This document shows positions 28,673 through 34,058 of a stretch of DNA of 44,709 bases, in pieces. The position numbers were made by a program, and so were the translations under genes. How positions within the stretch are numbered: position 1 is the first letter of the stretch; every line of letters starts with the position of its first letter. Under the pieces are notes generated by a model. The model searched no databases and had not been told where the DNA came from. It saw only the letters and a list, made by a program, of their open reading frames with translations. This stretch comes from Alphaproteobacteria bacterium. GTDB lineage: Bacteria; Pseudomonadota; Alphaproteobacteria; UBA8366; GCA-2717185. The stretch spans positions 1 through 44,709 of the forward strand of contig JAJFJB010000051.1 in NCBI GenBank assembly GCA_021774435.1, written 5' to 3'.

Positions 28673-29206
28673 GCTCGTCCACCATACAATGCCGCGCCGG
28701 TCAAACATGGCCCGCGTGTAAATAGGGATATCGAATCCGCTAGTATTCGACTTGTCGACGAAGACGGTGAAATGATCGGCGTCGTTCCGCTCGCTGAAGG
28801 ATTGAACCGCGCCGACGAGGCGGGGCTCGATCTGGTCGAGGTGTCACCGAACGCCAAACCACCGGTTTGTAAAATTCTCGATTACGGCAAGTTCAAATAT
28901 ATCGCGCAGAAAAAAGCCAATGAAACGCGCAAAAAACAAAAGACCATCGATGTTAAGGAAATCAAGATGCGTCCGAACATCGATAATCACGATTACGATG
29001 TGAAAATGCGCGCGATGGAAAAATTCCTGGATGAAGGCGACAAGGTAAAAGTTACCTTGCGATTCCGGGGGCGCGAGATGGCGCACCAGGAATTGGGCCG
29101 TAAGGTTTTGGAGCGCGTCCGAGACGATCTCGAAGGGCCGGCCAAGGTCGAGCAGATGCCGCTCATGGAAGGGCGGCAGATGATAATGATCCTCTCGCCG
29201 AAATAG
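28670..29206 (+). CDS. infC: Translation initiation factor IF-3 (AUA start)
   Basis: Translated from ATA 28670 the protein has 178 residues, the usual IF-3 length. The N-domain reads [20 protein letters not shown] then [20 protein letters not shown], and the C-domain contains [37 protein letters not shown] and [12 protein letters not shown]-3 keeps the 30S subunit free and rejects wrong start codons. A rare start codon is the known self-control of infC in other bacteria (usually AUU). The first in-frame ATG, at 28772, would delete the conserved N-terminus. It follows thrS by 85 bases and converges on the ADC-like gene. Confidence 0.95.
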
Positions 29207-29216
29207 CCGCTCGGAC

Positions 29217-29942
29217 TTATTTGGATTCTTGCAGGTAATCGTGCATGACCCGACCGAGAGGAAAGGTCATGTCCGCGAGCACGTATTGTCCTGATATGAT
29301 TTTTTGCACCGGAAATGGGGCCAAAGGGCTTCCAGCGCCGGTTTCGAGCTGCGCTTCGCCGCGCCAATAATGTTTTATCGTGATCGCTTCCGGCTTCGTG
29401 GAGACAAGCTGCGCAATGGCTGGTTTTCCGTCTGCGCCCGGAATGATTTTGCATGTGACTTGCGTTCCGTCGAACGACACACTTGCGGGATCGCTTTCTT
29501 CCGCGACGGGAATTGATCCACGCAGATGTTGTCCGTAACCAAGATCCAGAACGCCGGCGACTCTGTTCTCGCCGATAATCAGTTCCGGATTGCCGTAAGT
29601 TGCCGGGAACCCCCAAACTTCCCGGCTCGCATAAATCGGTCCTTCCTGATCGACAATGAGTGCGTGGGAGTACGAGACCGGCGTTTCTTCGAACGTTGCC
29701 GCTAAGGAAACTGCGCAGGCGCGGTATGCGCCAAAGGGACTATCCGTGGTATCGACGAACGTTACGATGACAGAAGCGCCATCGGGTACCAGGGGTTCGG
29801 GCAGTGCGGCGCGAACCGCGTCGGCGTTGCTTTCATAAGTTATGCTCAAGGCTGCGCGGTCGGTAAATTGAAACGGCGGAAGCCTGTAACTCGACGCCAT
29901 TGGTGGCATGCCCGGACATGCGAGGATATCCTCTCGTTTCAT
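29217..29942 (-). CDS. Acetoacetate-decarboxylase-fold protein lacking the catalytic lysine
   Basis: This 241-residue protein has the ADC family layout: an N-terminal beta region, FVDTTDSPFGAYRACAVSL, and SREVWGFP at residues 106-113. In true decarboxylases the sequence after this proline is Lys-Lys, the second of which forms the Schiff base; here it is Ala114-Thr115. The rest of the fold continues (AGVLDLGYGQHLRGS, FPVQKIISGQYVLADMTFPL). Decarboxylation by the classic route is therefore unlikely. Its start overlaps the enoyl-CoA hydratase stop by one base (TGATG), so they form one operon with the SDR upstream. Confidence 0.85.
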   Translation of the reverse strand: MKREDILACPGMPPMASSYRLPPFQFTDRAALSITYESNADAVRAALPEPLVPDGASVIVTFVDTTDSPFGAYRACAVSLAATFEETPVSYSHALIVDQEGPIYASREVWGFPATYGNPELIIGENRVAGVLDLGYGQHLRGSIPVAEESDPASVSFDGTQVTCKIIPGADGKPAIAQLVSTKPEAITIKHYWRGEAQLETGAGSPLAPFPVQKIISGQYVLADMTFPLGRVMHDYLQESK

Positions 29943-30709
29943 CAGCTTTTGGCATCCAGAAATTTCGCCATGCGCGGTCCCGGCGTGCCATCCCGGAAGG
30001 CATCAGAGAGAGACTGGATTCCGGCATGAACGCCATCGTCGAGCGAGAGGCGTTCCCAGTCCCGCATCAACTTTTTCTGCAACCGGATACCGGTGGGACC
30101 GTTCGCCATGATCATGTCGACGGTTTCCGCGACCGCCACATCAAGGCCGGCCGCCGGCGCGACATGTTCGACCAGTCCCCAATCCAAGGCCGTCGCGGCG
30201 TCAATGGCATCACCTCGGTAAATCAACCAGCTTGTCCGGCCCCATCCGATCAGCCGGGGAAACAGGGCCGCTTCGATGACCGACGGCAGATCGAATAGAA
30301 CTTCCGGCATGGCGAAGCGGGCATTGTCGCTGGCGATGCGGATGTCGCAACTGGCCGCAACTTCAAGACCCGCACCCATGCAGGCGCCGTTGACGCGCGC
30401 GATGACCGGCACCGGGAGTTCCCTGATGGCCTGGTTGGCGTTCTGCAGACCGGTAATATAGGCACGGCCGCTTTTGGCATCGAAATTGCGCAACTCCTGC
30501 AAATTGGCACCGGCAATAAAGGAGCGTGGCCCTTCCCCTGTCAGAACGGCGAGGCGGAGATCATCGTCGGATGCCAACTCGCGAAACGTTTCTTCCAAGC
30601 CCGCAACCAGTTCGCTCGTCAGGCAATTCGCTTTCGCGACGTTTTCGATAGTGACCGTAGCGATGCGGCCCTCCGGTCTTGTTTCAGTTTCAACGGCCAC
30701 GCGCGCCAT
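29942..30709 (-). CDS. Enoyl-CoA hydratase/isomerase (crotonase) family protein
   Basis: This 255-residue crotonase-fold protein has the oxyanion segment SFIAGANLQEL and NGACMGAGLEVAASCDIRIA, with both Glu residues that act in hydratases present: one in GLEVA, the other in FAMPEVLF. The loop after it is LPSVIEAALFPRLIG rather than the common PGxGGTQ, which marks a subgroup. It probably acts on an acyl-CoA in the cytoplasm. It is the middle gene of an operon with an SDR upstream (20 bases) and the ADC-like protein downstream (one-base overlap). Confidence 0.9.
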   Translation of the reverse strand: MARVAVETETRPEGRIATVTIENVAKANCLTSELVAGLEETFRELASDDDLRLAVLTGEGPRSFIAGANLQELRNFDAKSGRAYITGLQNANQAIRELPVPVIARVNGACMGAGLEVAASCDIRIASDNARFAMPEVLFDLPSVIEAALFPRLIGWGRTSWLIYRGDAIDAATALDWGLVEHVAPAAGLDVAVAETVDMIMANGPTGIRLQKKLMRDWERLSLDDGVHAGIQSLSDAFRDGTPGPRMAKFLDAKS

Positions 30710-30729
30710 AATTAGTTCCTTTATTAGGG

Positions 30730-31509
30730 TTAGAGGCTGGAGCGCTGTGTCACGCCGCCATCAATAGTCACGACGGCACCGCTGACCCAGGATGCTCTGG
30801 GACTGGCAAGATAGGCGACGAGGTCCGCAACTTCATCCGGTTTTCCCGCGCGGCCGAGAGGAAGGTCTGACAAGAATTCCGGCCAGCGTTCCCGGTCGCC
30901 GAACTTTTCTTCTGCCTGCGCCGCATAGATATCGATGAGACGTTGTGTTTCGATGAGGCCTGGATTCACCGCGTTGACGCGCACGCCCTTGTCGATACTT
31001 TCGCCTCCCAGGGCGCGGGTCATGGCCATGATGCTGGCATTGCCCATCGAACCGGCGAGGTAGTTCGGGACCGGACTTTCGCCCGCGGTGCCGATAACAT
31101 TGACGATGGCGCCGGAACCGCGGGCGCACATGGCGGGATAGACTTCGCGGATCAGGTTGATGTAGCCGAAGACTTTCAGATCCCAGGCCAGGCGCCAGGT
31201 TTCCTCGTCGACGGCGTCGACGGGGCCAAATGGAATGGCACCGGCATTGTTGACAAGAATGTCGATACCCGCCGTTTCAGTCGCCAGTTGCCGCATGCGA
31301 TCGCCATTCGACAGATCGGCGGCATGGATAGTGACCTGCGCGCTGTAGGTTTCGTTCAGCGCATCGCGCGCAACGATCAAGTCCGCTTCCGTCCGCGCCG
31401 CGAGATGAAGGCTGCAACCCTCTTCCGCGAGCCGTTCCGCCACGGCCCGGCCGATACCTTTGGAACCACCCGTAATCAGGGCCGTTTTGCCGGCAAGTTT
31501 TAGGTCCAT
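30730..31509 (-). CDS. SDR-family protein with altered catalytic residues
   Basis: From ATG 31509 (GGGAGCGG upstream) the protein has 259 residues. The cofactor motif TGGSKGIG and the NNAG segment are intact. The catalytic Ser position is Gly (NVIGTAG), and where YxxxK is expected the sequence is [19 protein letters not shown]: aligned on the following helix, the Lys is Asn157 and the Tyr is displaced. So it may bind NAD(P) but not use the classical SDR mechanism. A recognisable subgroup with this pattern seems to exist (recall, not checked). First gene of the SDR-ECH-ADC-like operon. Confidence 0.85.
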
Positions 31510-31681
31510 AATTCCGCTCCCTAGTCTTACCGGCACTGTCGCGCGGGCGCCCGCGCGGCGTCAAGCGGCGCAAATCTTAAATTTGTCCTTTGCATGGACC
31601 CAGATATTGGATTGAATTCGTCCACCGCTTAACGGTTTAGCTAGTGCGATCAGTATTATCGTTCGAGGTGGGATTGACGGA

Positions 31682-32536
31682 TTGAAGAAAACGAAGGTGT
31701 TGCGTTTTTTCTTGCCCATCATGGCGATTGTTTCGGTGCTTGGAGTCATTTTGGGGGCGTGGGCATTTTGGCTCGAACCCGCAAATTTGCAGAAAAATAT
31801 CTATGCCGCGACGCCGCAAGGATGGCCCAAGGCTTGTGATGGGCTCTCCATCGCCGTCCTCGCCGATCTGCATGCCGGCGCGCCGCATATAGATTTGGAA
31901 CAGATAAAGCAGGTCGTCGAACAAACGAATGCGGCGGAACCCGACCTGATATTGCTTGTCGGCGACTACGTTATTCACGGTGTGGTTGGCGGCGAATTTA
32001 TGGCGCCGGAATCTGCGGCGGCCATTCTGTCGGAGCTGCGCGCGTCTTTGGGAATCTATGCGGTGCTGGGCAATCATGATTGGTGGCTTGACCCGGACCG
32101 TGTGGCGCGGGCGATCCGTAACAACGGGATGACACTTCTGGAAGATGCGAATTTACCGATTCAATGGAAAGGGTGCGCGTTCACACTTGTCGGCATTAGC
32201 GATTATTGGGAAGGCCCGCACGATGTGGTCAAGGCATTCACAGGGTTGGAGCCCGGTTCTCCCATGATTGCATTTACGCATAATCCAGACGTTTTCCCCG
32301 AGTTACCGATGTCCGTGAGCTTGGCAATCGCGGGCCATACGCATGGTGGCCAGGTCGATCTGCCGGGGCTAGGGCGGCTCATCGTGCCGTCCGCCTTCGG
32401 TGAACGTTTTGCCGCTGGTATCATCAATGAAGCGGGTCAGACATACTTTGTTAGCAAGGGCATCGGAACGAGTATCCTACCCGTCCGGTTCCGCGTCGTG
32501 CCGGAAATCGCTATCGTAGAAATCGGGTCTCCGTAA
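31682..32536 (+). CDS. Membrane-anchored metallophosphoesterase
   Basis: This 284-residue calcineurin-like phosphoesterase has an N-terminal membrane segment (LRFFLPIMAIVSVLGVILGA) and the metal motifs in order: VLADLHAGAPH (DxH), LLVGDYVIHG (GD), VLGNHDWW (GNHD), FTHNPDVFPE and AGHTHGGQVDLPG. The phosphoesterase domain is probably periplasmic-facing or peripheral; family members act on phospholipids or nucleotides. A TTG start at 31682 has GAGGTGGG upstream; ATG 31721 would cut the membrane segment. It converges on msrA. Confidence 0.87.
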   Translation: MKKTKVLRFFLPIMAIVSVLGVILGAWAFWLEPANLQKNIYAATPQGWPKACDGLSIAVLADLHAGAPHIDLEQIKQVVEQTNAAEPDLILLVGDYVIHGVVGGEFMAPESAAAILSELRASLGIYAVLGNHDWWLDPDRVARAIRNNGMTLLEDANLPIQWKGCAFTLVGISDYWEGPHDVVKAFTGLEPGSPMIAFTHNPDVFPELPMSVSLAIAGHTHGGQVDLPGLGRLIVPSAFGERFAAGIINEAGQTYFVSKGIGTSILPVRFRVVPEIAIVEIGSP

Positions 32537-32567
32537 GGCGCGAGATTAGCTCTTAGGCCGTCAAAAA

Positions 32568-33212
32568 TTAATGCTTCGTAATGCCGCGGTGCGCTTCCTT
32601 GCCCCAAAGCGCTTCAACCCGGGCATCGCGGCCGCAGCGGTAGCGGTAGAATTTGTAACGGACAGGGCTCTTTTTATAGAAATTTTGGTGATAGTCCTCC
32701 GCCGGAAAGAAAGGACCGGCATCCACGATCGCGGTCACAATTGGTTTCTTGAGGACACCTGACTTCTCGATTTCTTGCTTCGTTTCCTGCGCAATTCGCT
32801 TTTGTTCCGCCGATGTGGCGAAAATGGCCGTCTTGTAACTGTCGCCCCGGTCGCAGAATTGGCCGCCGTCATCCGTCGGGTCGACGCTGCGCCATAAAAT
32901 ATCGACGAGCAATTTGTAACTAATTCTTTTCGGATCGTAGTGAATCCGGACCGCTTCGTAATGGCCGGTGTTTTTGCTTGTGACCTGTTTATAGGTCGGG
33001 TTGGGGGTAAATCCGCCGGTGTAGCCGGATGTGGTGCGGACCACGCCCGGGACGGTGTCGAAATCCGATTCCACGCACCAGAAGCATCCGCCTGCGAAAA
33101 TGGCGATTTTCAGGTCTTTTTCAGCGGTTTCCGCCGCGGAAGGGCCACTGAGCCATGTCGCCGACAGCAGGATTCCGAGGACAATTAGAGGGTTTTTGCG
33201 AAGTTTGAGCAT
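32568..33212 (-). CDS. msrA: Exported peptide methionine sulfoxide reductase MsrA
   Basis: From ATG 33212 (GGAG upstream) the protein has 214 residues, with a signal peptide (KLRKNPLIVLGILLSATWLS, then GPSAAE) followed by the MsrA domain: FAGGCFWCVESDFDTVPGV (catalytic Cys in GCFWC), SGYTGGFTPNPTYKQV, HYEAVRIHYDP. A late Cys in YRYRCGRD may be the resolving residue. It reduces methionine-S-sulfoxide, here probably in the periplasm. No msrB is adjacent. An upstream ATG (33245) would only lengthen the signal region. Confidence 0.93.
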   Translation of the reverse strand: MLKLRKNPLIVLGILLSATWLSGPSAAETAEKDLKIAIFAGGCFWCVESDFDTVPGVVRTTSGYTGGFTPNPTYKQVTSKNTGHYEAVRIHYDPKRISYKLLVDILWRSVDPTDDGGQFCDRGDSYKTAIFATSAEQKRIAQETKQEIEKSGVLKKPIVTAIVDAGPFFPAEDYHQNFYKKSPVRYKFYRYRCGRDARVEALWGKEAHRGITKH

Positions 33213-33352
33213 TAATCTTACTCCGAAGACGGCGGGTCGTTTCAACCGATATTACCTGTTCCCTGTTCAATTGGGGCGTTCGAACCTGCTTTCGTACCCC
33301 GTTTGCAAAATCTTTACATAACTTTATCGGCACTTGCGCTTCGCGCCTGGTC

Positions 33353-33381
33353 TTGCATCCTCTGCGCCCCGGCGTTATAAG
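33353..33381 (+). promoter_or_regulatory. Sigma-70-like promoter of the rpmI-rplT-pheS-pheT operon
   Basis: TTGCAT (33353-33358), a 17-base spacer and TATAAG (33376-33381) lie about 100 bases ahead of rpmI, giving a leader long enough for control. Confidence 0.65.
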
Positions 33382-33439
33382 GCGCGCGCTAAGAAGAACG
33401 GCTGTGGCCCTGGGTATGCCCTGTCGTTCAAACAAAGAT

Positions 33440-33457
33440 ATGCGCCAATGCGCGCAT
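33440..33457 (+). promoter_or_regulatory. Leader hairpin ahead of rpmI
   Basis: ATGCGC (33440-33445) pairs with GCGCAT (33452-33457), about 12 bases ahead of the AAGGAA ribosome site. L20 controls this operon through its leader in other bacteria; a role here is only possible. Confidence 0.35.
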
Positions 33458-33480
33458 GAAACGCTAACAAGGAATTTGAA

Positions 33481-33681
33481 ATGCCCAAAATGAAGACGAA
33501 GTCGAGTGCCAAGAAACGGTTCCGTTTGACCGCCAAAGGCAAGGTTCGGTTTAACAGCGCAGGCCTGTCGCACATGTTGCGGCGGCGTTCGCAGAAGATG
33601 AAACGGACCAACCGCGGGACGCAGATTATGTCCGAAGCGGATGCCAAGGTCGTCAAAAAGCACTATTTGCCATACAGCTAG
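33481..33681 (+). CDS. rpmI: 50S ribosomal protein L35
   Basis: This 66-residue, highly basic protein begins [20 protein letters not shown] and continues with [20 protein letters not shown], the L35 pattern, ending HYLPYS. It is a late-assembly protein of the 50S subunit. AAGGAA lies seven bases ahead of the ATG. It is followed 17 bases later by rplT; infC is not adjacent here but lies 4.3 kb upstream with thrS, an arrangement seen in alphaproteobacteria. Confidence 0.97.
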
Positions 33682-33698
33682 ACTAACGGAGCCAAGAT

Positions 33699-34058
33699 AT
33701 GTCTCGGATCAAACGGGGCGTGACGACCCATGCTCGTCACCGCAAAGTCATCAAGGCCGCCAAGGGATCGCGCGGCCGGTCCAAGAATACGTTTCGCGCC
33801 GCTATTCAGCGGGTCGAAAAGGACCTGCAATACGCCTATCGCGACCGTCGCACGAAAAAACGTGATTTCCGACGGCTCTGGATTCAGCGCATCAATGCGG
33901 CTTCCCGGATGCATGGGCTGACCTATGCGAAGTTTATCAACGGGTTGAAAATCGCCGGCGTCGACCTCGACCGAAAAGTGCTGTCCGATCTCGCCATCCG
34001 CGAGCCGGCCGCTTTCCAGTCTCTGGTTGAGCAGGCGCAGGCAGCGCTCGCCAAGTAA
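33699..34058 (+). CDS. rplT: 50S ribosomal protein L20
   Basis: This 119-residue basic protein has the L20 pattern: [78 protein letters not shown]. It binds 23S rRNA early in 50S assembly and represses its own operon in enterics. CGGAG precedes the ATG. It sits between rpmI and pheS in one operon. Confidence 0.98.

Follow-up and report, generated by a model that had tools for sequence, protein, structure and literature searches.

The solved protein closest to the short-chain dehydrogenase/reductase (SDR) considered here, whether searched with the single sequence or with a profile, is PDB entry 6jh7, which together with 6jha and 6jhb we take to be AerF of Microcystis. AerF has reportedly been published as a double-bond reductase dependent on reduced nicotinamide adenine dinucleotide phosphate (NADPH), and it works in a peptide natural-product pathway, the aeruginosin Choi biosynthesis, rather than beside a crotonase. 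There are published precedents both for an SDR that became an ene-reductase through a change in its active site and for SDRs that catalyse without the triad (PMC4988499; PMC5039031), and SimC7 is active without the catalytic triad (PMC5039031). In the acetoacetate decarboxylase (ADC) superfamily a different reaction is also on record, that of MppR, an enduracididine cyclase (PMC10367076). Here we compare with these systems a three-gene locus, encoding an SDR, an enoyl-coenzyme A (CoA) hydratase and an ADC-like protein, on a 44,709-nucleotide stretch of alphaproteobacterial DNA (assembly GCA_021774435.1, contig JAJFJB010000051.1; genome G000, contig C447 in our sample). The whole stretch is referred to below as the window.

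The original prediction had described the three genes as tightly coupled and had proposed that a joint loss of catalytic residues in the SDR and the ADC-like protein defined a three-gene system. The coupling was confirmed: all three open reading frames are intact and lie on the minus strand, separated by a 20-base gap and a one-base overlap. The proposed system did not hold up. The SDR change is the signature of its subfamily, the ADC-like gene is restricted to one genus, and the three genes are not a conserved three-enzyme system. Instead we lean, if only slightly, toward an old SDR-hydratase pair that would act on a shared CoA-linked unsaturated intermediate, with the SDR as an AerF-like reductase and the third gene as a dispensable add-on. 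The features on which the comparison draws are the following:

30730..31509, minus strand: SDR, 259 aa, NF004779/PRK06125 subfamily
29942..30709, minus strand: enoyl-CoA hydratase (crotonase), 255 aa, NF004795/PRK06143 subfamily
29217..29942, minus strand: ADC-like protein, 241 aa, PF06314; genus-restricted
29940..29944, minus strand: TGATG, one-base stop/start overlap of the hydratase and ADC-like genes
30710..30729, minus strand: 20-base gap between SDR and hydratase, containing an AAGGA ribosome site
28772..29206, plus strand: infC (initiation factor 3; the displayed part begins at an ATG inside the gene), bounding the conserved insertion site on the left
33699..34058, plus strand: rplT (ribosomal protein L20), right border of the site, followed by pheS and pheT

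The SDR gene reads from an ATG at 31509 to a stop at 30730 and has GGAG upstream, and AAGGA stands upstream of the hydratase start at 30709. The ADC-like gene has the overlap alone, ribosome sites being found only before the first two genes, and the same is true of both other genomes that carry it. In these two genomes the one-base junction (TAATG or TGATG) between the hydratase and the ADC-like gene is also kept, and the TGATG overlap likely couples the translation of the two genes. A longer SDR frame, starting from a GTG at 31536, is not supported because the members of the SDR family start at MDL. infC is convergent with the operon, with a 10-base gap to the stop of the ADC-like gene, and the stretch from the SDR to the ribosomal genes (window 31682-33245) holds genes for a metallophosphoesterase (plus strand) and a peptide methionine sulfoxide reductase (minus strand). 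The genome is 96% complete with 6% contamination, and the closest relatives to carry a name are listed as Rhodospirillaceae metagenome assemblies. The locus is flanked by translation genes and relatives show the identical gene order, both of which speak against a misassembly.

The residues were as originally read: the SDR is without its tetrad, the ADC-like protein is without Lys115 and Lys116, and the hydratase has both Glu residues. The view that the genes are not decaying was likewise borne out, and decay of the whole operon was rejected, by the intact frames and by a ratio of nonsynonymous to synonymous substitution rates (omega) of about 0.04 for the SDR and the hydratase.

The SDR and its active site

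The SDR matches NF004779/PRK06125 with 352 bits (cut-off 261), and the same model is the best or among the best matches for 16 of 16 SDR relatives tested. The dinucleotide-binding motifs, TGGSKGIG at 13-20 and NNAG at 87-90, are present and near-invariant in the family. The Asn-Ser-Tyr-Lys tetrad and its YxxxK are absent, and in an alignment with a classical SDR the four columns hold K112, G140, G153 and N157. This K-G-G-N set, together with Y150 and R39, does not vary in a first set of 53 sequences or in a wider set (68 of 68), in which one aligned SDR comes from outside the class and most relatives are without a hydratase or ADC neighbour. Like the window SDR, AerF has Lys, Gly and Asn at the Asn, Ser and Lys columns, respectively, as well as R39, and it has no Tyr at the Tyr column of the tetrad either.

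Since the residues are invariant in the relatives and the Lys/Asn swap is found in AerF, the loss reported for the SDR is a family signature. Judged from these alignments, K-G-G-N is fixed in a widespread SDR subfamily and does not mark an event in this operon; a residue loss specific to this operon was rejected for the SDR, all 68 relatives carrying the same residues. The signature implies an SDR chemistry unlike that of the classical SDRs, and R39 suggests NADPH as the cofactor. NF004779 carries no functional assignment, and in the literature library searched no paper names PRK06125 or PRK06143.

That AerF, the nearest solved protein, is without the Tyr and is reportedly a double-bond reductase argues against a different reading of the SDR, in which it acts on an ordinary ketone or alcohol by means of Y150 and K112, or with help from the substrate as in SimC7. 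Y150, at a distance of three residues from where the classical Tyr would be, and K112 are invariant in all 68 sequences, and SimC7 provides a precedent without the catalytic triad (PMC5039031); we hold this reading to be possible rather than probable.

The SDR-hydratase pair in the infC/rplT gap

The hydratase matches NF004795/PRK06143 barely above the cut-off (287 bits, cut-off 283), and the model is matched by 16 of 16 hydratase relatives tested. Both E116 and E136, presumably the equivalents of the catalytic Glu144 and Glu164 of the rat crotonase, are present, as in 51 of 51 sequences of the family. The Gly-rich loop that normally follows the second Glu is absent and is replaced by PS(V), of which PS is invariant in the 51 sequences. 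Close to the hydratase in other genomes, a family-III CoA-transferase was found in six of ten loci and an acyl-CoA dehydrogenase in four of ten, as counted by sequence clusters with representatives identified by Pfam, and these neighbours fit acyl-CoA catabolism.

The pair was followed in 43 genomes of the order and, outside the order, in 372 genomes of the class and 349 of the phylum. It adjoins infC and/or rplT in every one of the 11 genomes of the family to which the window belongs, and within the order it also occurs in a second family, in genera g16 and g17. The site is the gap from infC to rpmI/rplT, with the pair on the opposite strand. The SDRs in this slot form one clade (support 100/98), including a relocated paralogue from the same genus, and in G144, G249 and G338, members of a family of another order, the SDR is at the site without the hydratase. 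The conservation of the pair and its locus in relatives is more than chance.

At the genus level in the class sample, where the two genes are unlinked, the SDR occurs in 19 of 23 hydratase genera as against 42 of 273 genera overall (p=3e-14). For the ADC family, which served to control roughly for genome size, the figure is 9 of 26 genera (p=0.008). These are hand counts uncorrected for phylogeny, genome size is only partly controlled, and the absences hinge on E-value cuts. The co-occurrence supports a shared pathway of the SDR and the hydratase only, not of the third gene. The shared pathway on an acyl-CoA or beta-keto substrate that the original prediction had proposed is thus plausible for these two, as an acyl-CoA pathway, because the pair is kept together and the families co-occur unlinked, and it was not upheld for the ADC-like gene.

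It might instead be that the genes have no pathway in common and merely occupy the same permissive insertion site between infC and rplT. Cargo at the site does differ by lineage: the SDR of G338 stands alone beside a dioxygenase, a hydrolase and an alternative oxidase, the hydratase stands alone in several genera, and carbamoyltransferases are found in G038. However, the SDR-hydratase order and short spacing are kept across the whole family, and the SDR and hydratase families co-occur far above expectation when unlinked; a merely permissive site is an unlikely account.

The gap between infC and rpmI/rplT, which normally lies within a thrS-infC-rpmI-rplT-pheST block, holds metabolic cargo on the opposite strand in several alphaproteobacterial families (window 29207-33698; L186, L061, L062, L129, L144 and L149). 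This cargo varies and includes SDR, hydratase, ADC-like and carbamoyltransferase genes as well as a set of 2-oxoglutarate oxygenase, hydrolase and alternative oxidase. The slot SDR of G038 (L061 7565-8334) is broken by a frameshift or an assembly error. An SDR paralogue from the same genus (L067 3892-8479 and L066), 58% identical, falls inside the slot SDR clade, and in G015 the paralogue adjoins thiolase-like, amidohydrolase and phytanoyl-CoA dioxygenase genes.

The ADC-like gene

The third protein matches PF06314 over its full length (146 bits, cut-off 30) and NF002614 with 153 bits (cut-off 150), and its gene is the sole ADC match in the genome. With the solved ADCs (3bh2, 3bgt and 3c8w) it has the full-length family match and R29 in common, whereas their E61, E76, K115 and K116 are all replaced. 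Relative to 3bh2, presumably the Clostridium acetobutylicum ADC, the changes are E61T, E76A, K115A and K116T. The two relatives, in G016 and G017, have S, A, A and A at these positions, and R29 has become Trp in the G017 copy. The canonical E, E, K and K are present in all but a few of the other ADCs of the class that were aligned. The ADC-like protein is predicted to be unable to decarboxylate by the Schiff-base mechanism of ADC, and when it is compared with MppR it has no Lys at K115 or K116. The three ADC-like proteins make up a clade on a long branch, and this clade without the Schiff-base Lys is a new variant of ADC, all three genes of the locus belonging to known families.

Other ADC-family genes without the Schiff-base lysine were seen at L074 (2238 down), L084 (1477 down) and L089 (1501 up). 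Two of them have K115M with E61Q and E76A and one has K115Q with E76G, Lys115 and Glu76 always being lost jointly, and each adjoins a canonical ADC gene of the same genome.

Of the four genomes of one genus, G000, G016 and G017 carry the ADC-like gene, which was found nowhere else. The fourth, G015, is the sister of G000 in the SDR tree; the gene is absent there, with no remnant in the ~70 bases from the hydratase stop to the infC stop, although the SDR of G015 is 90% identical to that of the window. Gain in the genus ancestor and subsequent loss in G015 would be the simplest account. When 84,980 species genomes were scanned for a distant source of the Lys-less ADC, the only matches were the two genomes of the same genus; the scan relied on a pair of short peptide patterns and therefore detects close relatives only.

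The original prediction had proposed looking for the three genes together, with the same altered residues, in other genomes. Together they were found in the three genomes of this genus and in none beyond these close relatives. The altered residues recur throughout the SDR relatives, and in the ADC relatives elsewhere the canonical lysines are nearly always present. Given the genus restriction and the canonical relatives, both of the outcomes that had been named as contrary to the prediction were therefore observed for the ADC member. A dedicated non-classical pathway of three enzymes, in which the SDR and ADC-like residues changed together, is very unlikely: the SDR residues are fixed in 68 relatives, mostly without these neighbours, and G015 keeps a 90%-identical pair without the ADC-like gene, which is present in only three of the four genomes. 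The tight spacing, the one-base junction preserved in three genomes, the ADC-like frame open over saturated third positions and its omega below 1 would all agree with such a pathway.

The comparison of G016 with G017 gives the ADC-like gene an omega of 0.23 (bootstrap 0.12-0.53), about five times the 0.04 of the SDR and hydratase; thrS has 0.02, and five other neighbours have 0-0.14. The G000 and G016 proteins are 56% identical for the ADC-like gene, 82% for the SDR and 84% for the hydratase, and among the carriers the range is 54-56% for the first and 81-85% for the other two. More than 100 columns of the ADC-like protein are invariant, the three copies have no stop or frameshift, and third positions are saturated. 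The gene is thus fast-evolving yet still somewhat constrained. It may be a passenger that is being lost, with constraint relaxed after the catalytic loss and a frame open by chance and coupling. The omega about fivefold above that of the partners, the loss in G015, the change of R29 to Trp in G017 and the long branch all point to this, whereas an omega below neutrality, the invariant columns and three uninterrupted copies, in spite of a 44% residue difference between the two lineages, point away from it, and we consider a passenger conceivable but short of probable.

The putative pathway and its meaning

Building on the directly observed families, residues, conservation, gene order, locus, distribution and rates, the favoured SDR-hydratase pair, placed on the opposite strand between infC and rplT, would work on an unsaturated intermediate linked to CoA, with the hydratase adding or removing water through its two glutamates. 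The SDR, as a putative AerF-like NADPH-dependent reductase with Lys and Asn swapped and with Ser and Tyr now glycines, would most likely deliver hydride to a conjugated C=C; alternatively, within the same proposal, hydride could go to a carbonyl, with a proton from the substrate or from Y150. A classical alcohol dehydrogenase would be an unlikely role for such an SDR. In one genus, an ADC-family gene would have joined behind the hydratase via TGATG and lost the Schiff-base lysine and its partners, and it would later have been lost in one lineage; the gene may be dispensable, repurposed or fading.

Several observations weigh against this proposal, besides the limits of the co-occurrence counts given above. 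AerF is only ~36% identical to the window SDR, has Ser at the Tyr column where the family has Gly, and has no Y150. The neighbours of the SDR in other genomes give no clear pointer to CoA chemistry, and a structure model of the SDR from its single sequence reached a predicted local distance difference test (pLDDT) of 39 and was not used for a fold search. In genera g14, g15 and g18 of the order the hydratase is at the site without the SDR, and outside the order the two genes were adjacent in none of the class and phylum genomes.

A broader version of the proposal is rather unlikely, though it deserves mention: the swapped-SDR and PSV-crotonase families, mostly encoded apart, would serve a widespread undescribed acyl-CoA pathway of Alphaproteobacteria and would form an operon at infC/rplT in this order, the swapped tetrad being a stable double-bond-reducing site.

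The comparison corrects the tempting reading of a shared loss by showing that the SDR change is an old signature of its family and that the change in the ADC-like protein is recent and local. The interest that remains lies in the invariant Lys/Asn swap and in the link of the SDR to one crotonase family. With the hydratase as a named partner enzyme there is a hint at the substrate class of the SDR, and the perfect Asn/Lys exchange, in an SDR family that is common yet apparently unstudied, raises the question of how far an SDR active site can be rewired.
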